Assembly: GCA_002897635.1 (NCBI GenBank) | Contig: BDTD01000018.1 | Location: forward strand, 124,001-188,000 | Direction of reading: 5' to 3' | DNA length: 64,000 nt | From: a bacterium BMS3Abin11 | GTDB taxonomy: Bacteria; Pseudomonadota; Gammaproteobacteria; BMS3Bbin11 | Shown: piece by piece, positions 1-19,891 of the stretch | Numbering within the stretch: the stretch's first letter is position 1 | Layout: each line of letters begins with the position of its first letter | The notes under the pieces: generated by a model | What the model was told of the DNA's origin: nothing | Database searches by the model: none | What the model saw: only the letters and a program-made list of their open reading frames with translations | Made by a program: the position numbers and the translations under genes

Positions 1-20
1 ATTTTGAGCTGACTCACCAT
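1..20 (-). CDS. Start of the next Bat-operon gene (probably BatD), partial
   Basis: On the minus strand an ATG at 20-18 opens a frame (MVSQLK...) that leaves the window. It overlaps the TGA stop of the BatB-like gene in an ATGGTGA junction, the tight coupling used throughout this operon. In Bat operons the gene after the VWA/TPR proteins is usually BatD (large membrane-anchored protein, oxygen-tolerance family). Identity is inferred from position only, because six codons carry no family information. Confidence 0.4.
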
Positions 21-1897
21 GGCAGGATACCGGGAACAATTTCTGCTTCTTCCAGTGGTGCAGGAAAACCTTCTTCCATTTCAAACAGACGCTTCCATAG
101 TAATATCTGGAGATCTTCCAGCTCACGCATACGCAGTCGGGCAGCGGTAATGTCCTGGTGCCATTGGGATCGTTTATTACCAGCGATAAGGCCAGGTGAT
201 GAACTTCCATTTTGTGCCAGACGCACATGTGCCAGGCCTTTAGCCAGTAGCTTCGATAGTTCCTGCGGTGGAATATCGGGTAGTGGGAGTTCGGTATTCT
301 TCCTTTCTTCTTCATTATCGAATGTCATGGATCCCTGGTTATTGATGTCCAGTCCCTGTTCTGCACGAGCGCTGCGGGGACCTGTGCCCATGCGACTGGC
401 CAGGCCCTGTTGAATCTGATCCTCGATAAGTTGCTGCAATGATAAGCTGAGGCTGAGGTTAGCTATCGATGCTTCATGTGATGGTCGATACAGCAGGGAA
501 TCTCTATAAAGCGCTGCGGCCAGCGCATAGTCACCGGTCATAAAGGTAGCATTTGCCAAATTATAGATAGCGCTGCCGCGTTGCTGATCGTTGTTAGCAA
601 GAATGATAGCCTGATTAAATTGTGTGATCGCCTGTGAGTACTCAGCCAGTCGGTAAAAGCTATTACCTTCACCAAACCGACCGAGGAAACCGGGTATCTG
701 ACGATAGAAATTTGCCGCCTGATCAAATCTTTCTGCAGCATAGCTCTGGTAAGCCATGTTAGCCTGTTCAGATGAATATTCTGAGGCAGATGCTTCATTT
801 GTCTGTAACAAAGAGGCAAGTATCAACAGGCACATCGGTACCAGCATTTTAGGGTGGCTAACAGGTTGCAAACGGTAAGGCATCAGGCAAATAAACAGCA
901 GTATGATGGCAGGGAACAGGAACCATGGGTAGAGTTCCCGCCAGATCGTTTCATCGTTGCTGATTTCGTCACCGAGAGTGACAGATCCAGCGGCTATACC
1001 CTGCCGGTAAAGATATTGCCAGTCACTGTCGTCATTCTGGGCAATGATAAAGCGCCCCTTTCCTGCGCTTGCAAGATCGGCAAGTAAGGTCTCGTCCATG
1101 CGTGAAATAACCGGGCGGCCTTCATGTTGCAACCACCCGCTTTCATTATCGGGGGTGGCATCACCTTCCGGGCTGCCGAGGCCGAGTATATACAGGGGTA
1201 TCGATGCCTTGTTCAGGCCGCTGATAGCCGTCCGGAGTTGCTGCAATGAATCGCTGTTGCTGGAAATATCACCGTCTGTTAGCCAGAGAACGGTAGATTT
1301 GGTATCAAATGACGCCGTCTCTATTTCTTTCCTTGCCAGTGTGAGAGCATCGCTTGCCTGACTGCCATAGGTCGGTAGAGGAATCGAATCGATGAACTTT
1401 AAATAATATTTTACTGCATTGATGTCATGGGTAAATGGCAGTAGTAGATGTGCACGGGAGGTGTAAAGGATGATGCCAATACGGCTATTGGTCGCGCTTT
1501 GCAATAATTCGTTGATTTCAATTTGTGCCCGTCGTAGTCGATTCGGCTCAACATCACGCGTTCGCATGGAACGCGAAACATCGACCACGATCATGATATT
1601 CATGTCCGGGGTATCTGCCGAAGCAGGCTGTTCAAGCAATAGCCGTGGACCGGCCATTGAGATTGCCAGTAACAGCCAGCTGATAATGTATAAGGTATTG
1701 CGTGTGAATATCAAAGAATGTTGCTTTTTAACGCAGTACCAGCCAGTCCATGCCTGTAATTCAGGGTCAGCGTATCTTGATAGCTTTCTTTTATTAGACA
1801 GCCTTCGCATTGCCAGCAGAATAAAGGGCTGTAATGCGAGTAGGAACCACAGGGGTTCCCGCCAGTACACACTCTCCATCCAGGCCATGTCGATCAT
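14..1897 (-). CDS. BatB/BatC-like VWA domain and TPR protein, membrane anchored
   Basis: A 627-residue membrane protein. Hydrophobic segments lie near residues 13-30 and 68-83. A von Willebrand A domain follows with a complete MIDAS motif (DVSRS at 106-110, later LTDGD), which binds a divalent metal and ligands. Two more hydrophobic segments sit near 320-370, then TPR-like helices (about 380-490) and a charged tail. This is the BatB architecture with a BatC-like TPR region fused at the C-terminus, as in many proteobacteria. The start overlaps the BatA stop by ATGA. Bat proteins have been tied to aerotolerance and stress fitness, but their biochemical role is unsettled. Domain assignment is secure; function is inferred. 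Confidence 0.85.
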   Translation of the reverse strand: MIDMAWMESVYWREPLWFLLALQPFILLAMRRLSNKRKLSRYADPELQAWTGWYCVKKQHSLIFTRNTLYIISWLLLAISMAGPRLLLEQPASADTPDMNIMIVVDVSRSMRTRDVEPNRLRRAQIEINELLQSATNSRIGIILYTSRAHLLLPFTHDINAVKYYLKFIDSIPLPTYGSQASDALTLARKEIETASFDTKSTVLWLTDGDISSNSDSLQQLRTAISGLNKASIPLYILGLGSPEGDATPDNESGWLQHEGRPVISRMDETLLADLASAGKGRFIIAQNDDSDWQYLYRQGIAAGSVTLGDEISNDETIWRELYPWFLFPAIILLFICLMPYRLQPVSHPKMLVPMCLLILASLLQTNEASASEYSSEQANMAYQSYAAERFDQAANFYRQIPGFLGRFGEGNSFYRLAEYSQAITQFNQAIILANNDQQRGSAIYNLANATFMTGDYALAAALYRDSLLYRPSHEASIANLSLSLSLQQLIEDQIQQGLASRMGTGPRSARAEQGLDINNQGSMTFDNEEERKNTELPLPDIPPQELSKLLAKGLAHVRLAQNGSSSPGLIAGNKRSQWHQDITAARLRMRELEDLQILLWKRLFEMEEGFPAPLEEAEIVPGILPW

Positions 1898-2928
1898 CTG
1901 ATGATACTCCGACTTAATCGATAAAACTGGTAAATGGAAAGGATCAGCAGACTGAAAATTAGCGGGATCGGATAAAGTGGTATGCTGAAGTAACGGGGAG
2001 GAAGTTCTTTCTTGTATTTTTCGCGTAGATCAATGTCCTGAATGGCATCTTCCAGTGTTTTCTCATCTCCGGCCTGGTAGCTCTTGGCCCCGGTAAGCTC
2101 GGCCATTTTTTTCAGTAATTTTATATCGGCTGGGTGGTAGATCAGGCCGGCAAGTTCGTCTTCGGCAGCATCATAACTGGCAGCACCTATGGCTATGGTG
2201 TACATCGGTAAACCCGATTCTTTGGCAAGTTTTGCTGCCGTAATCGGAGAAATGCTGTCGGTAGAGTCACCGGTATCGGTAAATAGTATCAGCAAGCGCC
2301 TTCTGTCAGGATCGTCACCGGCCTGTTTGACGGCCAGCGCAATGGCTTCACCGAGTGCATTAAAGCGACCCGCCATGGTGGTTTTGAGTCGCGACAGCAT
2401 GCGTCGGGTTAGTGACTGATCGTCATTTAATGGAACGAAGGTGTATGCCGATTCACCAAACACAATTATGGAAATTCTGTCATCCTCTAGCCGTTGTACA
2501 AAACGGTCTAGAAAACTTTTAAGAAAGCTCATGCGGTCAATGCGTTTGCCATCAAGAATATAATCTCTCAACAACATGCTGACCGAGGCATCGACAATAA
2601 ACGTGATATCCCGCTGATTGGGTTGATCAGGGATGCGACTGCCTGTTTTTACCGGTTGAGCTAAAGCGAGAACCAGGCTGGAAAGTACCAGGCCTGTGAC
2701 GATCATGTCCAGCGCATGGATTTGAATTAAAACACGCTGTTTTATTTGCAGGTGAGCAAGCAATGGCAGGCGAACGCGCAGGTCAGCACTGGGGCTGATA
2801 AAACTGACAGGCTGAGAGGATTCATCCTGCCTGTTTGCAGACTTTTTCCATAGTAGTGCACTCAGGACAAGAACGGGTAATAACCAGAGCCAGGCAGGTG
2901 AAAGAAAGGCCAACTCCATGCTGGTCAT
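1894..2928 (-). CDS. BatA-like VWA domain protein
   Basis: A 344-residue protein with N-terminal membrane segments (about 8-26 and 73-90), a VWA domain with MIDAS motif DASVS at 113-117 and the later LFTDTGD loop, and a C-terminal membrane helix ending in basic residues. This is the classic BatA layout: a periplasm-facing VWA domain between two membrane anchors. ATGA overlaps join it to the DUF4381 gene upstream and the BatB-like gene downstream, so translation is probably coupled across the three. It likely forms a membrane complex with its neighbours, served by the MoxR ATPase. The family is clear; the ligand is unknown. Confidence 0.87.
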   Translation of the reverse strand: MTSMELAFLSPAWLWLLPVLVLSALLWKKSANRQDESSQPVSFISPSADLRVRLPLLAHLQIKQRVLIQIHALDMIVTGLVLSSLVLALAQPVKTGSRIPDQPNQRDITFIVDASVSMLLRDYILDGKRIDRMSFLKSFLDRFVQRLEDDRISIIVFGESAYTFVPLNDDQSLTRRMLSRLKTTMAGRFNALGEAIALAVKQAGDDPDRRRLLILFTDTGDSTDSISPITAAKLAKESGLPMYTIAIGAASYDAAEDELAGLIYHPADIKLLKKMAELTGAKSYQAGDEKTLEDAIQDIDLREKYKKELPPRYFSIPLYPIPLIFSLLILSIYQFYRLSRSIIR

Positions 2929-3383
2929 GGCCAGTTCTTCAGCCAGAAAAAGGCATCATCAAACATTTGCTTTGTATTCGTGATTTTACTGTTGCTACTG
3001 GCAAAACGGAGAAGGGAAAGATCATTGATGAATAGCTGCCAGCGTTCGTGATGCGGCTCAAGTTCAGGGGGCAGGGTGGTCAAGGCAGTGATACCGTTAA
3101 TAGTCAGGCCATCAGAGAGAATCTGGGCTAGCCGATAGGCTGTGTCACGATAAATGCCTGCATTACTAACATCTAGTTGTTCCAGCCTGTTTCGTAAGCG
3201 CCGCAAGCGCCGTTCGGCCTGTGAGCGAGAATTATTAAAATGTCGAACTGCATAAGTCGTCAGAGTAATCAGCAGAATGATCAGCACAAAAGCAGAAATA
3301 ATGACAGGGGCGCTGCTTTCAGGCGGTGCTACAGGCGGCTCAATATCCAGCAGGCCATGTACGGTTTGGAATGATTGTTCCAT
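2925..3383 (-). CDS. DUF4381 membrane protein of the Bat operon
   Basis: A 152-residue protein with a short proline-rich N-terminus, one transmembrane helix (about 25-47), a very basic stretch with arginines (about 55-70) and a soluble helical C-terminal domain ending FFWLKNWP. This matches DUF4381, a family found almost only between DUF58 and BatA genes in MoxR-Bat operons of gammaproteobacteria. It overlaps BatA by ATGA. Its function is unknown; a structural role in the membrane complex is likely from context. Assignment rests on size, topology and position. Confidence 0.78.
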   Translation of the reverse strand: MEQSFQTVHGLLDIEPPVAPPESSAPVIISAFVLIILLITLTTYAVRHFNNSRSQAERRLRRLRNRLEQLDVSNAGIYRDTAYRLAQILSDGLTINGITALTTLPPELEPHHERWQLFINDLSLLRFASSNSKITNTKQMFDDAFFWLKNWP

Positions 3384-3388
3384 CGAGT

Positions 3389-4396
3389 TTATATCTCGAT
3401 TATTTGTTCAATACGATTATCATTTGTCATGATGCTCTGACAGGGAATGGCAAGTGATCTGAAAAGCTGCTGTTTAGACTCCAGAAAACTAGATGCTAGC
3501 CTATGGTATTGCGAACTGGATTGTTTATTTGAGCTATTAATTCCAATAACCGACTGGTGTTGAGATTGAGTAAGTAAATTCCCGCATTCGGGCAATTCCA
3601 CCTCAACAGGATCAATAATATGTATCGCCTGCAGGCGGTGCATCATCGACAGTTCCAGCAGGCTGGAGCGACAACTGTCATCAAGATCATAAAAATCGCT
3701 AATCAGTATCACATTACTACCCTGGGCAAGCATCGGTATCATTAGTTTAATAACATGCGAGAGTGATTCCTCGTTTCTGTTGCCGGATAGATGGGAGGCC
3801 TGTGCTGAAGCAGGTGGTGGACAGGGTTTGTTTGCCGCATGAATGAAATTAAACACACCCGCTTCATCGAAGGATTCAGTAATCCAGGACAGTTTTGGTT
3901 TTTCGTCTGATTCGAGCAATACCCCCGCCACCGGTGTATTTTGCAGATGGGCATCAAAGGCCATCACAGCCGCTGCCCGAACTGCCTGCGTAACTTTGAG
4001 CCGGCAGCGAGTACCAAACCGCATGTCCTGTCGTCTATCGACTACGATAAAGACCCCGGGTTTTCGCTCTTCACGAAAGACCTTCATATGCGGTTCACCC
4101 GTACGTGCGGTGATGCGCCAGTTCATGAAGCGCAGTTCATCACCTGGGAAATAGGGTCGGCTTTCATCGTAATCCATACCGTAGCCGCGATAGACAGAGC
4201 GGGCGTCACCCAGCGTACGGTGTTCTACTTCATGCCGGTAATCGATAGTACCGTTTTGCTGTTCTACCCGGGCCCTCAGTTTAAGGATTTCATTGCGGGA
4301 TAATAGGGCTGCGTCAAACCGCTGACGGAGTTTGTTATAACGCGGCCACCAGCTACCGGGATTCAGTCTCTTTAATCCAGCATTCACAGAAATCAT
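3389..4396 (-). CDS. DUF58 domain protein
   Basis: A 335-residue soluble protein. The signature region GDELRFMNW followed by a T-R-x-G-E-P stretch is typical of DUF58, a family with a degenerate VWA-like fold (VDRRQDM) encoded beside MoxR ATPases. The frame can be extended upstream to 4474, but that would overlap moxR by 74 bases. The ATG at 4396-4394, 4 bases after the moxR stop, gives the N-terminus expected for the family and is preferred, although no strong Shine-Dalgarno sequence precedes it. It is probably a partner of the MoxR ATPase. Molecular function is not established. Confidence 0.83.
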   Translation of the reverse strand: MISVNAGLKRLNPGSWWPRYNKLRQRFDAALLSRNEILKLRARVEQQNGTIDYRHEVEHRTLGDARSVYRGYGMDYDESRPYFPGDELRFMNWRITARTGEPHMKVFREERKPGVFIVVDRRQDMRFGTRCRLKVTQAVRAAAVMAFDAHLQNTPVAGVLLESDEKPKLSWITESFDEAGVFNFIHAANKPCPPPASAQASHLSGNRNEESLSHVIKLMIPMLAQGSNVILISDFYDLDDSCRSSLLELSMMHRLQAIHIIDPVEVELPECGNLLTQSQHQSVIGINSSNKQSSSQYHRLASSFLESKQQLFRSLAIPCQSIMTNDNRIEQIIEI

Positions 4397-4400
4397 GTGA

Positions 4401-5363
4401 TCAGGGAATTGGTATTTGCTCGAGTATATATTCAATGATGTCATCACGGCTGACGTTTGCAGCACGTGCGGCATAACCGAGAATTAATCGATGACGAATA
4501 ACATCAGGGGCTATCTCAATGATATCTTCTGGTATGACATATTCACGTCCACGCAGATAGGCTGTCGCACTGGCTGCTCGTAGCAAAGCAATAGATGCGC
4601 GTGGTGATGCTCCAGCAATCAGAAAATCCTTCCAGTCGCTATTCAAATCGTAGAGATTTCGGGTCGCACCGGCCAGCGCAACAATATACTTTTCCAGTAT
4701 TTCCTCAACATGAATCTCGGCAACTTCACGGCGAGCGGCAAGTACTGTTTCAGGATGTAATGGTGAACTCATAGATTCCTTATCTTCACCATAATGCTGT
4801 TCGCGATCTTTTTTTAGAATGACTAGCTCATCCTCCGCTGAAGGGTAATCAATTACGATGTGTAATAAAAAACGATCAAGCTGGGCTTCCGGGAGCGGAT
4901 AGGTGCCGGTCTGTTCCAGTGGATTTTGCGTAGCCATAACGATAAACAGATCAGGCAGGTTCCGGGTCGTATCACCGACAGTTATCTGATGTTCCTGCAT
5001 GGCTTCAAGCAGGGCTGACTGAACTTTCGGCGGAGCCCGGTTAATCTCATCTGCCAGCACGATTTCATGGAATAGCGGGCCTTTGACAAAGCGGAAGCTA
5101 CTTTCCCTGGGGTCATAGATATCTGTGCCGGTTAGATCACCCGGCATCAGGTCAGGTGTGAACTGGATGCGCTGGAAGGAGGCATGAACACCGCTTGCAA
5201 GGGTATTTACCGCGAGGGTTTTTGCCAGGCCGGGTGGGCCTTCAAGCAGGATGTGACCTCCGGTCAGCAGTCCAGTCATCAGCCTGTCCAGCAGGGTATC
5301 CTGGCCGATGATGACCTGTTGCATATGTTCGCGAAGCTTAATGAATTCGGGTTGTGTTTCCAT
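4401..5363 (-). CDS. MoxR-family AAA+ ATPase
   Basis: A 320-residue AAA+ protein. Walker A is GPPGLAKT at 42-49, Walker B is VLADEINRAPP near residues 103-113, and the MoxR-typical QNPLEQTGTYPLPEAQ sensor segment and C-terminal lid follow. MoxR ATPases act as chaperones that mature or remodel VWA-containing partners; here those are the BatA- and BatB-like proteins. It is the first gene of the minus-strand operon moxR-DUF58-DUF4381-batA-batB. The 27-base gap to the ArsR-rhodanese gene upstream, on the same strand, leaves room for read-through from that regulator's promoter. Confidence 0.93.
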   Translation of the reverse strand: METQPEFIKLREHMQQVIIGQDTLLDRLMTGLLTGGHILLEGPPGLAKTLAVNTLASGVHASFQRIQFTPDLMPGDLTGTDIYDPRESSFRFVKGPLFHEIVLADEINRAPPKVQSALLEAMQEHQITVGDTTRNLPDLFIVMATQNPLEQTGTYPLPEAQLDRFLLHIVIDYPSAEDELVILKKDREQHYGEDKESMSSPLHPETVLAARREVAEIHVEEILEKYIVALAGATRNLYDLNSDWKDFLIAGASPRASIALLRAASATAYLRGREYVIPEDIIEIAPDVIRHRLILGYAARAANVSRDDIIEYILEQIPIP

Positions 5364-5390: not shown

Positions 5391-6050
5391 TCATTGTTCT
5401 ACCGGCATGCCATCATGCTTCCATTCCGGAAAACCGTCTTCCATTCTCCTGGCAGTTCTTCCATGTTTCCTGAGTTCAGCGACGGCATCAAAGGCAAGGA
5501 TGCAATAAGGACCCCGGCAATAGGCCACTATCTCCTGTTCAGTTCCCAGTTCATCAAGATGTTTCTGCAAGTCACTGAGAGGAATATTTTTCGCGCCGGG
5601 GACATGTCCGGCATTGAATTCTTCATGCGGTCTGACATCAATAATTGTGACCAGTCCATCATCGACACGTTCCAGCAGCTCTTTACGTGCGATGGGTTCG
5701 AGATTATCTTTAATAGTGAGGTAGCTATCAACTAAACGACCTACATCGGCCAGTTCGCGTTCGGCAACACGGCGCAGGCTGTTGAGAAGTTCAACTATAT
5801 CGTCGCTGCTAAGTTTATAAAATACTTTAAGTCCCGCCTTACGGCACCTGACTAGCCCGGACTGGCGTAACTGCTGAAGATGCTGGGAGGTGTTCGCCAC
5901 CGATAAACCGGAAATTTTTGCCAGTTCATCGACACTGCGTTCTCCCTGCGCCAGAAATTCCAGTAGTTCGAGACGATTGCCGTTGGCCAGTGCCTTGCCG
6001 ACGCGGGCAAACTGGCTGAAAAGATCGTGTTTAAAGTTCCCGCTTGACAT
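5391..6050 (-). CDS. ArsR-family regulator with C-terminal rhodanese domain
   Basis: A 219-residue fusion. The N-terminal half is an ArsR-type winged helix (NRLELLEFLAQGERSVDELA, then recognition helix SVANTSQHLQQLRQSGLV). The C-terminal half is a rhodanese domain (IDVRPHEEF, GHVPGAKNIP) with an apparent active-site loop CRGPYC. Such fusions probably sense sulfane sulfur or thiol-reactive species through the rhodanese cysteine; the inducer here is inferred. A TTG at 6077 could lengthen the protein by nine residues, but it lies inside the palindrome at 6072-6091, so the ATG at 6050 is preferred. The gene diverges from the oxygenase gene at 6178. Confidence 0.88.
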   Translation of the reverse strand: MSSGNFKHDLFSQFARVGKALANGNRLELLEFLAQGERSVDELAKISGLSVANTSQHLQQLRQSGLVRCRKAGLKVFYKLSSDDIVELLNSLRRVAERELADVGRLVDSYLTIKDNLEPIARKELLERVDDGLVTIIDVRPHEEFNAGHVPGAKNIPLSDLQKHLDELGTEQEIVAYCRGPYCILAFDAVAELRKHGRTARRMEDGFPEWKHDGMPVEQ

Positions 6051-6071
6051 AATTTTTGAAGTCGTTATCCT

Positions 6072-6091
6072 ATTCAAGTAATTAATTGAAT
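6072..6091. promoter_or_regulatory. Candidate operator of the ArsR-rhodanese regulator
   Basis: A perfect inverted repeat, ATTCAA-N8-TTGAAT, lies 21 bases upstream of the regulator's ATG in the divergent intergenic region, with a further AT-rich GAATTAAT copy at 6096-6103. ArsR-type sulfur sensors (SqrR, BigR, YgaV) are known to bind related ATTC...GAAT sites. From here the regulator could repress its own gene and the plus-strand operon starting at 6178. Binding is inferred. Confidence 0.5.
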
Positions 6092-6177
6092 AAATGAATT
6101 AATGTTAGTATTATAGTCATTATTGAACTAATTCCTCAACAAGTTTACGAACAGGTAAACAATTCAGGAGCTAAGTT

Positions 6178-7050
6178 ATGAAGATGGAAGAATTTATTAT
6201 GACCAATGAAAAGCAGATAAGAATGGGCTTTTTCCTTGGTGTGCTGGTCATAATGGCCTTATGGGAGATCGCCGCACCGCGACGCGGGCTTACAGTGTCG
6301 AAAACTATGCGCTGGGTGAATAATCTGGGTCTGGTGTTTTTTAATTCATTTATTCTGCGCGTATTGTTTCCAGCAGCAGCCGTCGGCGTCGCTGTGATGG
6401 CTGGTCAGCAGGGCTGGGGACTGTTCAATGTCTACGAACTGCCACTTTATGTCTCTGTCGTTGCATCGGTCGTTATTCTGGATTTCGTTATCTATGTCCA
6501 GCATGTCATGGTACATGCCATTCCGGTCCTATGGCGCCTGCATCGGGTCCATCATGCTGACCCTGATATCGATGTGACGACGGGGGCACGCTTTCATACG
6601 CTGGAAATTATCCTTTCGATGCTGATCAAATTTGCCACCATCCTGCTGCTAGGCCCGCCAGTGGTTGCCGTTATCCTGTTTGAGATCATTCTTAATGTTA
6701 CCGCTATGTTCAACCACAGCAACGTTGGTCTGCCGCCAGCCCTCGATCGTGTTCTACGTTGGATTGTTGTGACACCCGATATGCACCGGGTGCATCATTC
6801 GGTTGAGGATGACGAAGCCAATAGTAACTTCGGTTTCAGCCTGACATGGTGGGACCGTTTATTCGGTACCTATCGCGATCAGCCGCGTAACGGGCATAAA
6901 GGGATGACTATCGGTATCCATAAATATCATGATACAAAAGATATTTCATGGATTACCGGCATATTGCTGCTTCCATTCCGTGGCAAAATTTCCGAGTACA
7001 CTATAAATCGTCGTCAATGGAGTGGTGCAGAAGAGGAGAAAAGCGGATGA
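6178..7050 (+). CDS. Sterol desaturase / fatty acid hydroxylase family membrane oxygenase
   Basis: A 290-residue integral membrane protein with the histidine clusters of the family: HVMVH (near 111), HRVHHAD (near 121), FNHSN (near 180) and HRVHHS (near 203), which would bind a diiron centre. Several hydrophobic segments precede and separate them. Members hydroxylate or desaturate lipids using oxygen; the substrate cannot be read from sequence. CAGGAG lies 7 bases before the ATG, which makes the start secure. It is the first plus-strand gene behind the ArsR-rhodanese operator and overlaps the next gene by ATGA, so the two are translationally coupled. Confidence 0.88.
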   Translation: MKMEEFIMTNEKQIRMGFFLGVLVIMALWEIAAPRRGLTVSKTMRWVNNLGLVFFNSFILRVLFPAAAVGVAVMAGQQGWGLFNVYELPLYVSVVASVVILDFVIYVQHVMVHAIPVLWRLHRVHHADPDIDVTTGARFHTLEIILSMLIKFATILLLGPPVVAVILFEIILNVTAMFNHSNVGLPPALDRVLRWIVVTPDMHRVHHSVEDDEANSNFGFSLTWWDRLFGTYRDQPRNGHKGMTIGIHKYHDTKDISWITGILLLPFRGKISEYTINRRQWSGAEEEKSG

Positions 7051-8009
7051 AGAGTAAATGGATCCGTCTTGGACTATTTCTTGTTCTGGCGGCAGGTATA
7101 GCGGTGGCTGTTGCCTACCGTGATCAGTTTAATGCTGAGGCACTGGAAAACTGGGTAAAGGAGGCTGGACCTGCTGGACCTGTTATCTATATTCTGATCT
7201 ATGCAGTGGGGACCGTGTTTTTTTTACCTGGGTCAGTATTAACACTAACGGGTGGGGCTCTGTTTGGCCCGGTATTGGGAACCTTCGTCAATCTTACCGG
7301 TGCTACTCTGGGTGCCCTGGGCTCCTTCCTTATTGCTCGTTATCTGACCCACGACTGGGTAGCAAACAAGACAGGAGGACGTATCAAGGCATTGATGAAT
7401 GGGGTAGAAAATGAGGGCTGGAGGTTTGTCGCTTTTGTCCGACTGGTACCCCTGTTCCCGTTTAACATTTTGAATTATGCACTGGGTTTGACACCAATTA
7501 AACTTCTCCATTATTTCGTGGCGACCTATATCTTTATGCTGCCTGGAGCGATTGCCTACACCTATCTTGGTTATGCAGGCCGTGAAGCAATCGGGGGTGG
7601 TGAAGGTCTGATCCAGAAAGGGTTGCTGGCGCTAGGTTTACTGGCCCTCGTTGCTTTTCTGCCTCGTATAATCGGTAAGATGCGTCAGGGGCCGACAATC
7701 GATATTCCAGAACTTAAAAAACGCCTGGACTCCGGGGAAACATTGGTACTTGATGTGCGTACTGCTGAGGAATTTGTTGGTGAGCAGGGTCATATTGAAG
7801 GAGCACTGAATATTGCTGTTGAAGAATTGCCAAAGCGAATTGATGAATTAACTGATTACATTGAACAACCAATTGCAATTATATGCCGAACTGACAGGCG
7901 TTCAGCTAAGGCTGCATTACTTCTGGCTGAACATGGCTTCCATGATGTACATGTCGTGCGTGGTGGAATAACCAGGTGGATTGAAGCTCATCAGGCGGTG
8001 GTTCGCTGA
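7047..8009 (+). CDS. TVP38/TMEM64 (DedA-like) membrane protein fused to a rhodanese domain
   Basis: A 320-residue fusion. Residues about 1-215 form a multi-helix TVP38/TMEM64 membrane domain with the family motif around FLPGSVLTLTGGALFG and FVRLVPLFPFNILNYALG. Residues about 225-315 form a rhodanese domain (LDVRTAEEF, GHIEGALNIA) with an active-site cysteine in ICRTDRRSAKAA. The frame opens further upstream, but the ATG at 7047 that overlaps the previous stop (ATGA) and follows AAGAGGAG is clearly the start. Topology suggests a membrane platform carrying a cytoplasmic sulfur-transfer domain. The transported or sensed molecule is unknown. Confidence 0.88.
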   Translation: MKSKWIRLGLFLVLAAGIAVAVAYRDQFNAEALENWVKEAGPAGPVIYILIYAVGTVFFLPGSVLTLTGGALFGPVLGTFVNLTGATLGALGSFLIARYLTHDWVANKTGGRIKALMNGVENEGWRFVAFVRLVPLFPFNILNYALGLTPIKLLHYFVATYIFMLPGAIAYTYLGYAGREAIGGGEGLIQKGLLALGLLALVAFLPRIIGKMRQGPTIDIPELKKRLDSGETLVLDVRTAEEFVGEQGHIEGALNIAVEELPKRIDELTDYIEQPIAIICRTDRRSAKAALLLAEHGFHDVHVVRGGITRWIEAHQAVVR

Positions 8010-8059
8010 ACTACAAATTTAACTACACAACTGCCGACATGCCGGCAAAGGAGAGCAAC

Positions 8060-8287
8060 ATGGATATAGCAGATATTTTAATTCACGTTCATCCGGACTT
8101 AGTGGCTGAACAACGGGAAAAGGTTGAAGAGGCGCTGCGCTCTAATGAAGGCATTGTATCGGTTCATTTCAGTTCGAAGCATGTTCATGAGCTTACTGTA
8201 GCCTATAATCCTGATGTGATTAATTCGGCAACAATACTGGAACAGATACGGCAATGGGATGCAGCAGCGACAATGGCGGGTCTGTAA
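8060..8287 (+). CDS. Small HMA-fold-like protein lacking the CxxC metal site
   Basis: A 75-residue protein with the alternating pattern of a ferredoxin-like (HMA/CopZ) fold: a first strand ILIHVHP, helix, SVHFSSKHVHELTVAYNP strands, and a final helix SATILEQIRQWD. The usual MxCxxC metal loop is replaced by HVHPDLVAEQ, leaving only histidines. The start was moved from the ATG at 8039 to that at 8060 because AAAGGAGA at 8047-8054 is correctly spaced for the latter. It may bind a metal through histidines or be a protein-interaction module of the surrounding redox operon. Function is unknown. Confidence 0.7.
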   Translation: MDIADILIHVHPDLVAEQREKVEEALRSNEGIVSVHFSSKHVHELTVAYNPDVINSATILEQIRQWDAAATMAGL

Positions 8288-8479
8288 GTCATATGGGTAC
8301 CTGGTGACGGCATCGGTGATGCTGTCAACGTCCTACGATTGTATAATTAACCGACACCGGAACATACACGTTGTATTCCTGGAAGATGGTGCTACATGTG
8401 TTTGTTCCCTCGTTTCCTCTCACGGAATAACTTTGAGAGACTACGTCCACAAAAGCTTTAGCGAGCAGGAGCACGCTGT

Positions 8480-9691
8480 ATGAAAAAAAGGTCTGTCGTC
8501 ATCATCATTGCATTTGTCATTATCCTAATTGGTTTTTTTACGTGGCGTTTTATTCGTCCGATGGAAATATTTGTCGTTGATGATCGCTTTGCCTGGCCTG
8601 TTGATACATCTAAGGTGCCGCCTGTGCTGGGTGACCTGAGTGCAGAGACTTGCGGTTCGTGCCATACGGAATTTTATCAGGAATGGCGTACAACAATACA
8701 CAGTCAGGCCTGGACCGATCCGTATTTTCAGGCTGACTGGAAGTTTGAAGATAAACGAGATAGTTGCCGTCTGTGTCACACTCCACTCGATCGTCAGCAA
8801 CCACAGACTGTTCTGGGTTATCGGGATGCATCTAAATGGGACCCAGTGCTTGAGGATAATCCGAATTTTGATCCCAAACTTCAACACGAGGGTGTGACCT
8901 GCGCCGCCTGTCACTACCGTGAGGGGAAAATAGTGGGCGTACTCGACAATGTCAATGCACCACATCCGGTAAAGAAGCTGGATAATCCGAATGAAGTCTG
9001 CGTTCGCTGTCATGTAGTCGACGGCAAGCGCTGGGATACCTTTTACCGCTTTCCTCCCTGTGGCACGGTGACTGAAATTCAATCGAACAGTGGTGCGGTG
9101 AGCCGGTCTGGTGAAACAATAGTGAAAGATATCGCTTCATTGGGCTGTGTCGATTGCCACATGCCAGCGATTAAGCGGCCACTGGTAGAGGGCGGTGTTG
9201 TGCGTAATGCACGGCAGCATTTATGGCGTGGTGGACATGATCCAGAAATGGTCAGGAAAGCCTTTACGGCGAGCCTGTTTGAAGAAAAATTAAAGGAGAA
9301 AAATAAAAGAAAGTTCACCTTCAAAATCACCAATACAGGAGCTCGCCACTATCTGCCTACGGGTACACCGGATCGATATCTATCAGTCAATATGAGGCTA
9401 CTTGATTCGCAGGGAAAGATACTAAAGGAAGAGAATCATAAACTTATACGGAATATGATGTGGCGGCCGTTTATTATTGATCTGTCCGATACGCGTCTTG
9501 CTTATGGTAAGCCGCGTGAGTACTCCATGGAATATTCAACTGGCGAATTTAACAATGTCGCTGCCATGGAGGTGAAAGTACGCTATCACCTGGTCAATGA
9601 GAACAGGGTTAAGCGAATAAACTATCAAAGTCAGGAACCTATTGATTATGAAGTGTTCTCAAAGCGTATCGATCTTTCAGAAGCCGAATGA
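8480..9691 (+). CDS. Membrane-anchored pentaheme c-type cytochrome
   Basis: A 403-residue protein with an N-terminal membrane helix (about 5-23) and five CxxCH heme-attachment motifs: CGSCH, CRLCH, CAACH, CVRCH and CVDCH, all within residues about 55-230. The C-terminal 170 residues lack hemes and look beta-rich. The layout resembles cytochrome c554-type multiheme proteins, with an uncleaved anchor putting it on the periplasmic side. CAGGAG precedes the ATG. It sits 10 bases before a flavoprotein disulfide-reductase-like gene in the same operon, so electron exchange with the quinone pool or a periplasmic acceptor is plausible. The substrate is unknown. Confidence 0.86.
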   Translation: MKKRSVVIIIAFVIILIGFFTWRFIRPMEIFVVDDRFAWPVDTSKVPPVLGDLSAETCGSCHTEFYQEWRTTIHSQAWTDPYFQADWKFEDKRDSCRLCHTPLDRQQPQTVLGYRDASKWDPVLEDNPNFDPKLQHEGVTCAACHYREGKIVGVLDNVNAPHPVKKLDNPNEVCVRCHVVDGKRWDTFYRFPPCGTVTEIQSNSGAVSRSGETIVKDIASLGCVDCHMPAIKRPLVEGGVVRNARQHLWRGGHDPEMVRKAFTASLFEEKLKEKNKRKFTFKITNTGARHYLPTGTPDRYLSVNMRLLDSQGKILKEENHKLIRNMMWRPFIIDLSDTRLAYGKPREYSMEYSTGEFNNVAAMEVKVRYHLVNENRVKRINYQSQEPIDYEVFSKRIDLSEAE

Positions 9692-9701
9692 GTAAAAATA
9701 A

Positions 9702-11126
9702 ATGAAAAAGTTTGACCTGGTGGTTATCGGTGGTGGGACAGGCGGACTTATTGTCACCAGTGTTGCCGCACAATTAGGTCTAAAAGTGGTAATGATCGAA
9801 CGACGTGACAAGCTCGGCGGAGATTGTTTACAGACAGGATGTGTGCCAAGTAAAACTCTTATTCATGCTGCAAAAGTCGCTTCATTAATGCGGCGGGCAG
9901 ATGAATATGGACTTAAAGCCGTCGAGCCAGAGGTTGACCTTGGCCGAGTCAGCGACCACGTTCAGTCCGTCATTGATCAGATTCAGGTGCATGATGATCC
10001 TGAGCGTTTTCGAGACTATGGTGCGGAAGTGATATTTGGCCACGCCTGCTTCACCGATCCGAACACTGTTGAGGTCAATGGTCAAAGCATAGAGGGTAAA
10101 CGCTTTGTTATCGCTACCGGTTCCAGTCCTTTTATACCGCCGATTCCGGGACTCGATGAGGTACCGTACCTGACTAATGAAAATATATTTTCCCTTCGAC
10201 AATTGCCTGCGAGACTGATTGTACTAGGCGGCGGTGCGATCGGGGTGGAGATGGCACAGGCATACGCCAGGCTGGGCAGTCATGTGACGATCGTTGAACG
10301 GCTGCCGCATCTGCTGCCGCAGGAAGATCCTGAGATTAGTGACATACTGGCTGAAAGCTTAAAAGAGGAAGGCATAGACATCCTTACCACCACATCGGCG
10401 GAGCGTGTCAGCAAGACAGATGATATCTATCATATGCGATGCAGTCGTAAAAATGAGAGCGAGATTGAACTTGAATGCGATGCTTTGCTGGTGGCTGTCG
10501 GCAGAAGACCCAACGTAGAAGGCATGGGGCTGGATGCTGCGGGAGTTGAATACGATAACAGGGGCATCAAGGTCGACAGACGATTGCGCAGCACAAGCAG
10601 GCATATCTTTGCCTGCGGCGATGTGGCCGGGCCTTACCCGTTTACTCACATGGCGGAATACCAGGCTGGTATCGTTATCAGCAATGCCATATTTCGTTTC
10701 CCGAAGAAAATCAGTTACCGGGTAGTCCCCTGGGTAACCTACAGTGATCCGGAACTGGCCAGGGTAGGCATCACAGAACAACAGGCAAAAGAGCAGGGCA
10801 TGGAAGTAGATGTCCTGAGATTCCCTTTCAGCGGTATTGACCGAGCCCTGGCAGAGGTCGAGACTGTCGGTGAGATGAAGTTGATCTCCCGCAAGGGTAA
10901 AATACTTGGTGCAACAATACTTGGCCCACATGCAGGTGAGCTGATTCATGAAATTGTACTGGCCATGCAGGCTGGACTGAAGATAGGCGACATTTCAGCT
11001 ACTATTCATGCCTACCCGACATTGGCACAGATTAGTCGTAGAACAGTGAATACCTATTACGGTAAAAAGCTGTTCAGTGACCGCACCCGAAAGGTGGTAG
11101 GCTGGATAAATAGACTGTTGCCATGA
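9702..11126 (+). CDS. Mercuric-reductase-like FAD/NAD(P) disulfide oxidoreductase
   Basis: A 474-residue class I pyridine nucleotide-disulfide oxidoreductase. It has an FAD-binding GGGTGG near residue 10, a redox-active disulfide CLQTGCVPSKT near 43-53, an NAD(P)-binding GGGAIGVEMAQ near 176, a second FAD motif FACGDVAG near 305 and the dimerisation domain with an HAYPT motif at the end. There is no N-terminal HMA domain and no C-terminal vicinal cysteine pair, so mercury reduction itself is doubtful. In many bacteria this subfamily is fused or adjacent to TVP38 proteins, as here. It probably reduces a small thiol, disulfide or quinone partner; the substrate is unresolved. Confidence 0.87.
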   Translation: MKKFDLVVIGGGTGGLIVTSVAAQLGLKVVMIERRDKLGGDCLQTGCVPSKTLIHAAKVASLMRRADEYGLKAVEPEVDLGRVSDHVQSVIDQIQVHDDPERFRDYGAEVIFGHACFTDPNTVEVNGQSIEGKRFVIATGSSPFIPPIPGLDEVPYLTNENIFSLRQLPARLIVLGGGAIGVEMAQAYARLGSHVTIVERLPHLLPQEDPEISDILAESLKEEGIDILTTTSAERVSKTDDIYHMRCSRKNESEIELECDALLVAVGRRPNVEGMGLDAAGVEYDNRGIKVDRRLRSTSRHIFACGDVAGPYPFTHMAEYQAGIVISNAIFRFPKKISYRVVPWVTYSDPELARVGITEQQAKEQGMEVDVLRFPFSGIDRALAEVETVGEMKLISRKGKILGATILGPHAGELIHEIVLAMQAGLKIGDISATIHAYPTLAQISRRTVNTYYGKKLFSDRTRKVVGWINRLLP

Positions 11127-11137
11127 ATGATTTATTT

Positions 11138-11286
11138 AACCGCACAGGACGCAAAGGAATGCAGAGATAAAAAATGTGATTATAATTGGTGCGTCTCTTG
11201 TATAAAATTATGGGTAAGCAGGTGGGCGAGACTCTTTCCACAAATTAACTGTCTTTCTCTGCGTTCCTTTGTGTCCTCTGTGGTTA
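11138..11286. repeat. Inverted-repeat element, copy 1 (cacaggacgcaaagg type)
   Basis: Arms of about 29 bases (11138-11166 and 11258-11286) pair as an imperfect inverted repeat around a 90-base centre. The right arm reads CTCTGCGTTCC then TTTGTGTCCTCTGTGG. A related copy lies at 19749-19891. It fills most of the gap between the flavoprotein and ArsS-type genes and may fold into a long hairpin in the transcript. It has no coding content. Confidence 0.7.
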
Positions 11287-11316
11287 ATAACATATCTTTA
11301 AGGATTACAAAATTAC

Positions 11317-12276
11317 ATGCTAGCAACTTTACCATTACTTGAAGAAACCGATTTTCCAGATATCAAACGGGAGAAGCTGGAAATTTTGCAAGTTAATCTT
11401 GGCTATCTTTGTAACCAGAGTTGTCTGCACTGCCATGTTGATGCCGGTCCGAATCGAAAGGAGCAGATGAATCGGCAAACGGTAGATGATCTGATCAAAT
11501 TTCTGCAAAACACAAATATCCGGACACTGGATATTACCGGCGGCGCACCAGAGATAAATGAACACTTTCGTTATCTGGTGAAGGCTGCCAGAAGACATGG
11601 GGTGCATATAATTGATCGTTGTAACCTGACCATACTGAATGAACCTGGGCAGGAAGATCTCGCAGAATTTTTAGCCTCACATCGGGTTGAAGTTGTCGCT
11701 TCCATGCCCTGTTACCTTAAGGATAATGTTGATGCGCAACGTGGCAAGGGTGTTTACCGATCAAGTATCACCGGCCTGCACAAACTCAATGAGCTTGGAT
11801 ATGGAAAACCAGACACAGGGTTAACGCTGAATTTGATGTATAACCCACAGGGCCCGTCACTACCTCCTCCACAAGATACACTGGAAGCAGATTATAAACG
11901 TGAATTACAACATCGAGAAGGCGTGGAATTTAATAGTCTTTTTGTTTTAGTCAATATGCCCATCAAACGCTTCGGTAGCATGTTGATATCAAAGGGTCAG
12001 TTCCATGAGTATATGCAACTGCTTAAAGATACCTACAAGGCATCAAATCTGAACGGCATTATGTGTCGTACTCTGATCAGTGTGGACTGGCAGGGCTACG
12101 TTTATGATTGTGATTTTAATCAGATGCTGGAACTTCCGTTGCTCATTCATGGTCGAACAAGAACACATATAAACCAGATTAGTATTGATGCCCTGATGGA
12201 GAACCCCATCGTCATTAGGAATCATTGTTATGGTTGTACGGCTGGTCAGGGTTGTAGTTGTAGCGGGGCGTTGTAA
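11317..12276 (+). CDS. arsS: ArsS-type radical SAM protein (arsenosugar biosynthesis)
   Basis: A 319-residue radical SAM enzyme. The 4Fe-4S/SAM motif CNQSCLHCH (CxxxCxxC) is near residues 32-40, and the C-terminal cysteine-rich tail CYGCTAGQGCSCSGAL is characteristic of the ArsS/DUF3641 family. ArsS acts after ArsM to convert dimethylarsenate toward arsenosugars by adding a 5-deoxyadenosyl group. An arsM gene follows 1.4 kb downstream with two glycosyltransferases between, which supports this role. The start ATG follows an AAGGAT-containing leader. Family membership is strong; the exact product made here is inferred. Confidence 0.87.
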   Translation: MLATLPLLEETDFPDIKREKLEILQVNLGYLCNQSCLHCHVDAGPNRKEQMNRQTVDDLIKFLQNTNIRTLDITGGAPEINEHFRYLVKAARRHGVHIIDRCNLTILNEPGQEDLAEFLASHRVEVVASMPCYLKDNVDAQRGKGVYRSSITGLHKLNELGYGKPDTGLTLNLMYNPQGPSLPPPQDTLEADYKRELQHREGVEFNSLFVLVNMPIKRFGSMLISKGQFHEYMQLLKDTYKASNLNGIMCRTLISVDWQGYVYDCDFNQMLELPLLIHGRTRTHINQISIDALMENPIVIRNHCYGCTAGQGCSCSGAL

Positions 12277-12379: not shown

Positions 12380-13054
12380 ATGAAAATTTCTATCATTATA
12401 CCCACGCGCAATGAAGCAGAGAATATAATCAGGCTGTTACAGTCATTGCAGGTGTTTCGTAAAAGCGGCCATGAGTTAATTTTAGTTGATGGTCATAGTG
12501 AAGATGAAACTGCCAGTATTGCCGGGCCATTGGTCGACAAGCTGATAAAAACATCAGCCAGCCGGGCCCTGCAAATGAATACCGGTGCCGACGAGGCGAC
12601 AGGAGATGTTTTGTGGTTCCTGCATGCTGATAGTGTAGTTCCGGAACAGGCGGATAAGCTGATCATCAATGCGGTGACGATGGAGACTTATACCTGGGGC
12701 CGATTTGATATTCGCTTAAGCGGTCGACAGCGGCTCTTGCGTCTTGTGGAATCGAGTATGAATCTGCGGTCACGGTTAACCGGTATCGCCACCGGTGATC
12801 AGGGTGTTTTTGTTAGTCGTGGGCTGTTCTACAAGGCCGGTGGTTTCCCACAGCAGCACCTGATGGAAGATATTGCCCTGAGTAAGCATCTGAAAAAATT
12901 CCAGGCTCCAATTTGCTTACGTGAAAAGCTGGAGACTTCAAGTCGACGATGGGAGCAACGTGGCATTATTCGTACTATTTTACTGATGTGGCGACTTCGG
13001 ATGGCATATTCTCTCGGAGTACCTGCGGACAAACTGGCAATGCACTATGATTGA
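12380..13054 (+). CDS. Family 2 glycosyltransferase, rSAM-associated type 2 (TIGR04283-like)
   Basis: A 224-residue GT-A fold enzyme with the N-terminal SIIIPTRNEAENI strand-loop, an LVDGHSEDET motif, a DxD-like HADS near residue 75 and the GDQGVFVSR segment typical of the transferase type named TIGR04283. These genes accompany ArsS-like radical SAM enzymes and the TIGR04282 transferase, and are proposed to act in arsenosugar synthesis. AAGG lies 6 bases before the ATG. The sugar donor and acceptor are not known. Confidence 0.85.
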   Translation: MKISIIIPTRNEAENIIRLLQSLQVFRKSGHELILVDGHSEDETASIAGPLVDKLIKTSASRALQMNTGADEATGDVLWFLHADSVVPEQADKLIINAVTMETYTWGRFDIRLSGRQRLLRLVESSMNLRSRLTGIATGDQGVFVSRGLFYKAGGFPQQHLMEDIALSKHLKKFQAPICLREKLETSSRRWEQRGIIRTILLMWRLRMAYSLGVPADKLAMHYD

Positions 13055-13062
13055 TCAAGGCA

Positions 13063-13701
13063 ATGATTAATAAGGATTTCAAATACCCGTCTGCAACAAT
13101 TCTTGTCTTTGCTAAAGCCCCTGTGGAGGGAAAAGTGAAGACCCGACTGGCGAGCAGTATCGGTGATGAAGCGGCCCTACGTTTCCATGAACAGATGCTT
13201 GAGCGTACGCTGGAGATGGTGTGCAAATACAAGCTTGCCAGTGTGGAATTGCATGTTTCAGGAAGTCCTGATCACCCGCTGATTCAGTCATTGGCCAAAC
13301 AATACGGTATCATTGTCAGACTACAGCAGGGGAGCGACCTGGGTGAGAGGATGCATTATGCTCTTGAACAATCTCTCCTTGGTAGCCGCTACTGCGTATT
13401 AATAGGAACGGATTGTCCGGCGATGAATGTTGACTATCTGGCCAACGCGCTTACTGCACTGGTGCGAGGGCAGGATGTAGTATTGGGGCCAGCAGAAGAT
13501 GGCGGCTACGTGCTTATTGGAGCGCGACAGCTAAGCAGAGACTGGTTTAGTGATATCGCATGGGGTAGTCGTCAGGTACTCGAACAGAGTCGGCAGAAGA
13601 TAATGGCCAAAGGTGTACAGCTTGAAGAATTACAAACTCTCTGGGATGTGGATAAGATAACAGATTTTCAGCGTTGGCAGCTACAAACTGGCACGTGCTA
13701 G
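13063..13701 (+). CDS. TIGR04282-like glycosyltransferase (DUF2064), arsenosugar cluster
   Basis: A 212-residue nucleotidyl/glycosyl-transferase-like protein. It has a FAKAPVEGKVKTRLA phosphate-binding start, LIGTDCPAM near residue 112 and LGPAEDGGYVLIGA near 140, all hallmarks of DUF2064/TIGR04282. The frame also opens at a TTG at 13051 that overlaps the previous stop (TTGA). The ATG at 13063 is chosen as the more usual codon, but neither has a good Shine-Dalgarno sequence. The gene is paired with the TIGR04283-like transferase and presumably acts in the same arsenosugar or related pathway. Confidence 0.82.
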   Translation: MINKDFKYPSATILVFAKAPVEGKVKTRLASSIGDEAALRFHEQMLERTLEMVCKYKLASVELHVSGSPDHPLIQSLAKQYGIIVRLQQGSDLGERMHYALEQSLLGSRYCVLIGTDCPAMNVDYLANALTALVRGQDVVLGPAEDGGYVLIGARQLSRDWFSDIAWGSRQVLEQSRQKIMAKGVQLEELQTLWDVDKITDFQRWQLQTGTC

Positions 13702-13721
13702 CATTAAACTTACGTAAATAT

Positions 13722-14552
13722 ATGGTAACTATTTCGGAGAGTATCTTGAGCCAGCTTAAAGAAGACGTAATACGCCAGACAGTGAGAAAAGCCTATGCAG
13801 AGGTAGCTGAAGCAGATACCAGCGGGGGCTGTTGCGGAGAAGCAAATTCCTGCTGTGGTGTTTCAGATGATGAACAGATCAACGCCATCATTTCAACCCG
13901 TCTGGGATATACGCAGGACGATCGGGATACTGTGCCTGGTGGTTCGGACATGGGACTGGGATGTGGTAACCCGCGTGCGATCGCCAGCCTGAAAGTTGGT
14001 GAGGCTGTTCTGGATCTGGGTAGTGGGGGGGGCTTTGATGCATTCCTGGCGGCACAGGAAGTGGGTGAAACCGGCCATGTTATCGGTGTTGATATGACCC
14101 CGTCTATGATAAGCAAGGCAAGAGCTAATGTAGAAAAGGCTAAATATTCACAGGTGGAGTTCCGTCTCGGTGAGATCGAGCATCTACCTGTTGCCGATAG
14201 CAGTATTGATGTCATTATCTCCAATTGTGTGATCAATTTGTCTCCTGATAAGTCACTGGTGTTTAAAGAAATGTTTCGCGTGCTGAAAAACGGTGGCAGG
14301 CTGGCGATCTCCGATGTGGTGGCGAGCGTGGAACTGCCTGAATCCATGCGCAATGACCCTTACCTGCACTCTGCCTGTGTAGGGGGCGCAGCAACAATTG
14401 AATCTCTTGAGAAAATCATACAACAGGCTGGTTTCATTAATATAATTATCCAGCCTAAGGATGAATCACGTGAATTTATCCGTGATTGGGTGCCTGGATC
14501 AAAAGCGGAAGATTATGTGGTGTCAGCGACTATAGAAGGAATTAAGAGCTAA
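13722..14552 (+). CDS. arsM: Arsenite S-adenosylmethionine methyltransferase ArsM
   Basis: A 276-residue class I methyltransferase. The SAM motif is VLDLGSGGGFD near residue 97. Arsenic-binding cysteines appear in GLGCGNPRA, SNCVINLSP and SACVGGA, matching the conserved ArsM cysteines, with an additional N-terminal pair cluster GGCCGEANSCCG. It methylates As(III) stepwise. A TTG at 13746 has a well-spaced CGGAGAG (13735-13741), whereas the ATG at 13722 lacks one, so the true start may be 13746 (268 residues). It is the last enzyme gene of the arsenic set. Confidence 0.92.
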   Translation: MVTISESILSQLKEDVIRQTVRKAYAEVAEADTSGGCCGEANSCCGVSDDEQINAIISTRLGYTQDDRDTVPGGSDMGLGCGNPRAIASLKVGEAVLDLGSGGGFDAFLAAQEVGETGHVIGVDMTPSMISKARANVEKAKYSQVEFRLGEIEHLPVADSSIDVIISNCVINLSPDKSLVFKEMFRVLKNGGRLAISDVVASVELPESMRNDPYLHSACVGGAATIESLEKIIQQAGFINIIIQPKDESREFIRDWVPGSKAEDYVVSATIEGIKS

Positions 14553-14669: not shown

Positions 14670-15263
14670 ATGCTACATCATGTTGTTGGAGTGTTTACCC
14701 ATCCTAAAAAAGAGTGGGAGACTGTTCGCGATGAACAATGTAACCTCAAAGACTGTTATCTCAAACATGTTTTGCTGCTTGCCGCGATTGCTCCAATAAG
14801 CCTCTTTATTGGTGCTTCGCAGGTAGGCTGGACCATTGTTGGTAAGACACATCTACTGACGATATCCAGTACCCTGCCAATGGCCATTGGGTTCTATTTG
14901 TCTTCTCTGATTGGTGTCTACATTATGGGTCGTGCGATTCACTGGATGGCTACCACTTTTGATGCTGAGGTAAGCCTGGAAAAATCCGTGTTGATTGCAA
15001 CAACCATTGCAACGCCACTATTTCTTAGTGGCATCATCGTGATAATCCCTGTTGTGTGGTTGATTATGCTGGTTGGAATGGTTGCGTCAGGTTACACCGT
15101 TTACCTGATGTACACGGGTATTCCAATTGTTTTAAATATCGAACCGGAGCGTGGGTTTATTCTGGCGAGTGGTGTGTTAACGGTTGGTCTGGTGACTATG
15201 GTGGGTGTGCTCGTTACGACGGTTATATTATGGGGTATGGGGTTTGGGCCGCAACACGCATAG
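14670..15263 (+). CDS. Yip1-family membrane protein
   Basis: A 197-residue protein with five hydrophobic segments after a short amphipathic start (FTHPKKEWETVRDE), the typical opening of bacterial Yip1-domain proteins. AAAGGAG lies upstream of the ATG. It follows arsM by 117 bases and may be the last gene of the island, but could have its own promoter. Bacterial Yip1 proteins have no established biochemical role; a membrane-organising or transport-accessory function is possible. Confidence 0.75.
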   Translation: MLHHVVGVFTHPKKEWETVRDEQCNLKDCYLKHVLLLAAIAPISLFIGASQVGWTIVGKTHLLTISSTLPMAIGFYLSSLIGVYIMGRAIHWMATTFDAEVSLEKSVLIATTIATPLFLSGIIVIIPVVWLIMLVGMVASGYTVYLMYTGIPIVLNIEPERGFILASGVLTVGLVTMVGVLVTTVILWGMGFGPQHA

Positions 15264-19716: not shown

Positions 19717-19748
19717 GGAAAATTGTAGTTTATGTGTTAAAAGATTGT

Positions 19749-19891
19749 AACCACAGAGGACACAGAGGTACACAGAGGTTTATTCATCGTCTTTTTATGC
19801 TAAGAATTTGTTTTAATTGCAGAAATTCGGTAAATGAGCTGTCTATAATATAATTATTTTTTCCTCTGTGTACCTCAGTGTCTTCTGTGGT
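19749..19891. repeat. Inverted-repeat element, copy 2 (accacagaggacacagagg type)
   Basis: Arms at 19749-19778 and 19863-19891 (ACCACAGAGGACACAGAGG and its near complement ending TCTTCTGTGGT) enclose 84 AT-rich bases. It is related to the element at 11138-11286. It occupies the whole gap between cysZ and the kinase gene and covers the region upstream of cysZ. Confidence 0.7.

Follow-up and report, generated by a model that had tools for sequence, protein, structure and literature searches.

In marine food chains, organic arsenic occurs mainly as arsenosugars and arsenolipids. To our knowledge, only the first enzymes of the pathway that leads to them, ArsM and ArsS, are known biochemically. The activities of both have been established in other organisms, as cited in PMC8552651 and PMC12159101. 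On the regulatory side, the ArsR-type sulfane-sulfur repressors SoxR and sHdrR have been described, relatives of which also adjoin TauE-type exporters (PMC12423496). Here we examine a stretch of 64,000 nucleotides from the bacterium BMS3Abin11 (contig BDTD01000018.1; in the following, the window), in which an initial annotation had placed a redox cassette of unknown substrate next to an ArsR-rhodanese regulator. We conclude that the locus is probably an arsenosugar, possibly arsenosugar-lipid, biosynthesis operon, that the cassette is its promoter-proximal half and that the whole is presumably controlled by a repressor responsive to sulfane sulfur or thioarsenic. We base this assignment on the genes present, their conservation, linkage and co-occurrence, and the operator.

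The six genes at 5391-11126 are all open, and profile searches and translations confirmed the domains named for them. The regulator gene REG (5391-6050, minus strand) encodes a helix-turn-helix domain (PF01022) fused to a rhodanese domain (PF00581). Five genes follow on the plus strand: FAH (6178-7050), a membrane di-iron protein of the fatty acid hydroxylase/sterol desaturase family (PF04116) with intact His motifs; VTT-rhodanese (7047-8009), a VTT (TVP38/DedA-type) membrane domain (PF09335) joined to a rhodanese; a small His-rich HMA-like protein without CxxC (8060-8287); CYT (8480-9691), a membrane-anchored pentaheme cytochrome c with five CxxCH motifs; and FADO (9702-11126), an NAD(P)H-dependent disulfide oxidoreductase of the PRK06370/MerA-like type with the active site CLQTGC. 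The cassette had been thought to end at 11126. Instead, the same-strand run goes on to 14552 through arsS (11317-12276), encoding an arsenosugar radical SAM enzyme (TIGR04167, 460 bits, cut-off 300), the arsenosugar glycosyltransferase genes GT1 (12380-13054; TIGR04283, 267 bits, cut-off 182) and GT2 (13051-13701; TIGR04282, 198 bits, cut-off 134), and the arsenite methyltransferase gene arsM (13719-14552; PRK11873, 345 bits, cut-off 263). No terminator-like site was found on the plus strand between 5300 and 15548. Because the run continues into these four genes, the substrate is likely an organoarsenic compound. The arsS gene is the sole TIGR04167 match over cut-off in the genome. ArsM carries the three catalytic cysteines in the motifs GLGCG, SNCV and SACV and is of the general PRK11873 type; it reaches just 110 bits with NF038099 (cut-off 400), and no ArsM of that type scored over cut-off in the genome.

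Co-occurrence was analysed in 274 genomes sampled from the class, in most cases one or two for each family; the lists of genomes were copied into the scripts by hand and the figures were computed without a species tree. The arsS gene is present in 138 of the 274 genomes. Genomes with an FAH match of at least 330 bits, here the FAH clade (n = 113), possess arsS in 99 cases (odds ratio (OR) 22, p 8e-27), and with one genome per family the count is 63 of 69 (OR 34, p 1.7e-18). The association is found in genomes that do not oxidize sulfur (OR 23) as well as in genomes without the REG module defined below (OR 24). In 29 of the 106 genomes that have both genes, FAH is located no more than 12 kb from arsS, against an expectation of 0.9. 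By hand collation, eleven families contain two members that differ in both arsS and FAH, always in the same direction. This co-occurrence across many families suggests that FAH serves in steps still missing from an arsenic pathway of which little is known.

The module, defined as REG beside FAH and/or VTT-rhodanese, occurs in 47 genomes and is accompanied by arsS in 42 of them (OR 11, p 1e-9). The earlier label of an unknown substrate is not supported: the cassette leads directly into arsenosugar genes, and the module, and much more strongly FAH, co-occurs with arsS genome-wide. The sulfur theme suspected earlier was borne out too, as 45 of the 47 genomes carry soxB or dsrA (OR 39). The two associations are separate: among sulfur oxidizers only, the module still tracks arsS (OR 11, p 8e-7; one genome per family, OR 12, p 3e-4), and among genomes with arsS it tracks sulfur oxidation (OR 57, p 3e-11). 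One could read the cassette as a sulfane-sulfur response and detoxification module of sulfur oxidizers, composed of a persulfide-sensing repressor, rhodanese, membrane transport and redox output, that is merely adjacent to arsS in some genomes. The strong link to soxB or dsrA, which holds within arsS-positive genomes, would agree with this, as would the rhodanese domains in two of the proteins, neighboring genes for DsrE-like, cysteine desulfurase and TauE proteins, and the precedent of SoxR and sHdrR with relatives beside TauE-type exporters (PMC12423496). Against it, the module follows arsS even inside sulfur oxidizers, and FAH follows arsS where sulfur oxidation is absent. In addition, two operator sites beyond the REG/FAH gap precede arsS-containing runs, and FADO and VTT proteins are encoded near arsS in loci without REG. 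We therefore regard this explanation as unlikely, although it deserves serious consideration.

The regulator could be connected to a defined DNA site. The divergent gap between REG and FAH contains the palindrome TATTCAAGTAATTAATTGAATA (6071-6092), which scores 30.4 bits with a position weight matrix (PWM) and is the only PWM match above 12 bits within the 64 kb window. The consensus TATTCAA-N8-TTGAATA occurs in almost every REG/FAH gap of the module loci (79 gaps, of which 70 are distinct), and a reversed-sequence control over 1.45 Mb yielded no PWM match. In a genome-wide scan of 52 genomes, matches clustered at REG, usually at one place per genome; AT-rich genomes gave a few extra matches, but there the control scored as well. 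Outside the REG/FAH gap, the operator precedes FADO-arsS in G090 (25.8 bits), with REG on another contig, and a run HMA-FADO-...-arsS in locus L055 (position 6399, 32.6 bits). G090 is a draft assembly in which unlinked means on different contigs, and its gene order from operator to arsS was taken from a 2 kb locus and contig coordinates. Further copies lie upstream of a stand-alone FAH in G001 (30.7 bits), of a TauE-family gene in G083 (L349; 28.4 bits) and, more weakly, of FAH in G247 (20.5 bits). The statement that no described pathway applies is not supported, given that the cassette leads into known arsenosugar genes and that the REG operator recurs in front of runs with arsS in other genomes. 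We set aside low-scoring sites resembling the operator in G034, G091, G137, G186 and G187 (13-22 bits, mixed neighbors). We also noticed that the site at 6399 in L055 is a second REG operator within its cluster, beside a cysteine desulfurase and a TauE-family gene (L055:3192-6371), and that MerR-, MerT- and MerP-like genes are divergent from an operator-bearing stand-alone FAH in L355 (205-1369).

The conservation of the unit, which had been proposed along with the possibility that it would not reach past close relatives, extends far beyond them. REG is present in 77 of the 274 genomes. Among the named carriers are Sedimenticola, Thiodiazotropha, Endoriftia, Thiohalobacter and Solemya symbionts, besides some beta- and alphaproteobacteria. 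At the majority of REG loci, REG and FAH diverge and VTT-rhodanese follows FAH, ahead of a variable slot occupied by CYT and FADO, by a NapH/GltD-like flavo-FeS protein together with octaheme and pentaheme cytochromes, or by arsS itself. Of the originally proposed gene set, the core of REG, FAH and VTT-rhodanese is thus conserved, as is a redox slot, whereas the genes for the HMA-like protein and the cytochrome may be absent. The alternative redox slot (L205:1131-6518, L168:5784-8014, L243, L227, L236, L251 and L284) comprises a fusion of about 810 amino acids between a NapH-like FeS membrane part and a GltD-like flavoprotein, a 2-heme cytochrome, an octaheme cytochrome distantly related to the hydrazine-dehydrogenase/HAO family, and a pentaheme cytochrome; some loci lack part of this set of four. 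CYT itself is accompanied by arsS in 17 of the 18 genomes counted as carriers, some of which are partial.

Seen from arsS, 80 neighborhoods contained GT2 in 56 cases, GT1 in 55, VTT in 20, FADO and FAH in 19 each, REG in nine, and CYT and HMA in two each. The nine cases of REG near arsS represent nine different families, the window's own included. Gene orders vary, from REG/FAH-VTTR-DsrE-arsS and REG/FAH-VTTR-NifS...HMA-FADO-MT-arsS, both with REG divergent, to FADO-arsS-GT1-GT2 followed by a divergent REG/FAH-VTTR. In five loci near arsS (L035, L037, L045, L058 and L097), VTT and FADO are fused in open reading frames (ORFs) of 704-736 amino acids. On a quickly computed tree of 135 REG proteins, linkage to arsS switches at least 19 times, an approximate number because some loci scored as unlinked are short contigs; arsS linkage is therefore not one inherited arrangement. 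A DsrE-like protein of about 115 amino acids was further observed within some FAH/arsS clusters (L063:9133-9483, L075:11440-11790 and L100:14679-15017).

These arrangements also bear on a different explanation, namely that a metal or metalloid resistance cassette and an arsenosugar operon are functionally separate neighbors, joined by a shared arsenic tolerance. In agreement with this, the core stands alone in many genomes, plasmids of Alphaproteobacteria carry it near copper and other metal-resistance genes, and FAH is flanked by mer-like genes in G001. On the other hand, gene orders are mixed, with arsenosugar genes on both sides or inside (L100; GT1-FAH-GT2 in L039, L072 and L107) and the order GT-FAH-arsS-TIGR04282 on a Thiodictyon plasmid, and operator copies precede arsS-containing runs. 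Overall, we consider two separate units improbable.

Several observations weigh against the assignment as an arsenosugar operon. The gap of 190 bp between FADO and arsS contains a repeat-like element (11138-11287, ending in GTTCCTTTGTGTCCTCTGTGGTTAA), which leaves a single transcript across the two genes unproven. In module-bearing genomes the core is usually not adjacent to arsS, and fourteen genomes have a strong FAH match and no arsS, some of these assemblies being incomplete. REG without the module shows no association with arsS (OR 1.7, p 0.23) and one with sulfur oxidation (OR 7.5). Since REG without FAH and VTT thus tracks sulfur oxidation and not arsS, its ancestral signal was more likely sulfur than arsenic. 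Finally, on a mobilizable plasmid of Roseibium sp. Sym1 (L357:6233-8842), REG, FAH and VTT-rhodanese are found with a 24-bit operator, next to IS66 and the gene for a copper ATPase. The plasmid has no arsS (the chromosome was not searched), which speaks against an exclusively arsenical role.

The individual proteins give further hints as to function. In the window, the rhodanese loop of REG reads CRGPYC, with the active-site cysteine present. The pattern C-R-G-P-[HYF]-C recurs in 134 of 135 distinct relatives, with or without the module, the remaining one having CRGAHC. An alignment of relatives shows that the two cysteines of this loop are the only invariant ones of REG and that none lies in the helix-turn-helix domain. 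REG was not recognized as BigR (NF040642, 43 bits, cut-off 155). FAH matches PF04116 with 107 bits (cut-off 31), and its His-rich di-iron motifs are invariant over 14 relatives. Comparing its good structure model (pLDDT 83) with the PDB library gave nothing significant, and a sequence-profile search found no solved relative. The rhodanese loop of the VTT-rhodanese protein, CRTDRRS, retains the active-site cysteine. The HMA-like protein scores 21.5 bits with PF00403 (cut-off 24.8) and, lacking CxxC as well, does not qualify as an HMA metallochaperone. Members of the CYT family are about 60% identical. The last heme of CYT and the region following it match the NrfA-like pentaheme cytochrome c552 (PDB 5ze8) weakly in a profile search (E 1.5e-10); CYT differs in its membrane anchor and in a long C-terminal region for which no solved relative was found. 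An AlphaFold model of CYT had low confidence (pLDDT 55) and was not used. A distant CYT paralogue with 28% identity is encoded elsewhere in the genome (G000:C5:41473-42297, L120).

FADO belongs to the same flavoprotein disulfide reductase family as MerA and dihydrolipoyl dehydrogenase and shares their CxxxxC active site, and among PDB entries it matches a mercuric reductase best. A role of the locus in mercury or tellurite detoxification with FADO as the reductase could be derived from this match. However, FADO stays below the MerA cut-off (TIGR02053, 403 versus 454 bits) and, ending in ...WINRLLP, does not have the C-terminal Cys pair, on which grounds we rejected its reading as a mercuric reductase. 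The run in the window contains no mer transport genes either, so that such a detoxification role appears highly improbable.

Within an arsenosugar operon, the following course of events is conceivable. REG would repress the run from TATTCAA-N8-TTGAATA and let go once its rhodanese loop, C-R-G-P-[HY]-C, carries either a thiolated arsenical or sulfane sulfur. A role of such compounds as signal or hazard fits both the rhodanese domains and the restriction of the REG version to sulfur oxidizers. The chemistry of the back half, arsenic methylation and deoxyadenosyl transfer, follows from the presence of ArsM and ArsS: judged by the activity of homologues, ArsM would make dimethylarsenic, to which ArsS would add a 5'-deoxyadenosyl group. 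The glycosyltransferases, FAH and the VTT protein could then work on a membrane-associated intermediate, with FAH as a di-iron oxygenase performing an O2-dependent oxidation and the VTT protein moving the product across the membrane. Using electrons from NAD(P)H, FADO might keep arsenic trivalent or reduce As-S bonds. In sulfur oxidizers, the rhodanese domains, together with the HMA-like protein and the cytochrome where present, may handle sulfur and so keep it from thiolating the arsenical. These enzymatic steps are inferred, as is the ligand of REG, for which we draw on its rhodanese loop and on the distribution in sulfur oxidizers. That FAH with VTT and FADO provides the missing arsenosugar or arsenolipid steps after ArsS, and that the ArsR-rhodanese repressor of sulfur oxidizers responds at its operator to sulfane sulfur or to thiolated arsenic, is in this specific form a tentative proposal that we rate at somewhat less than an even chance.

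The host assembly (2.67 Mb, 38 contigs) contains both soxB and dsrA in a search of its own genome, so that the host is a sulfur oxidizer by gene content. Upstream of REG, the minus strand (14-5363) encodes a MoxR AAA ATPase, a DUF58 protein and VWA/TPR (BatA/BatB-type) proteins, which we read as an ordinary aerotolerance-type operon. Downstream of arsM, a Yip1-domain membrane protein (14670-15263, plus strand) is of uncertain membership in the run; its gene also occurs in G194, a member of the same genus, and is absent from G057. A second copy of the 3' end of the repeat-like element, with 3 mismatches, lies at 19747-19771 on the minus strand. Judged from relatives, three genes start later than their longest ORFs: REG at an ATG near 6050, VTT-rhodanese at the ATG at 7047, overlapping the stop of FAH, and the HMA-like gene at the ATG at 8060.

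FAH tracking arsS across families, together with a defined operator and regulator, supplies named candidates for the later steps of the pathway and connects the metabolism of arsenic with sulfur oxidation in vent symbionts and in purple sulfur bacteria. Literature searches for the gene set and for a hydroxylase in connection with arsenosugars found no paper describing this arrangement, and a selenium link followed via PMC5322559 gave nothing relevant. What looks new is the widely conserved core of REG, FAH and VTT-rhodanese, its operator, the co-occurrence of FAH with arsS and the near-confinement of the module to sulfur oxidizers. Compared to SoxR, sHdrR, BigR and SqrR, REG shares the ArsR helix-turn-helix, the occurrence in sulfur oxidizers and rhodanese or TauE-type neighbors; these repressors sense via two conserved cysteines of the ArsR domain (PMC12423496), whereas the only invariant cysteines of REG are the pair of its fused rhodanese loop. 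FAH has its Pfam family and His-rich motifs in common with the ornithine lipid hydroxylase OlsE and other PF04116 enzymes, but reaches only 97 bits with the OlsE model (cut-off 475). The known arsenosugar biosynthesis genes, arsM, arsS and those of TIGR04283 and TIGR04282, are all four found here over curated cut-offs and form the described part of the locus. In an arrangement that we found in none of the papers located, they are preceded by a half consisting of FAH, VTT-rhodanese, the HMA-like protein, the pentaheme cytochrome and FADO, with an ArsR-rhodanese regulator.

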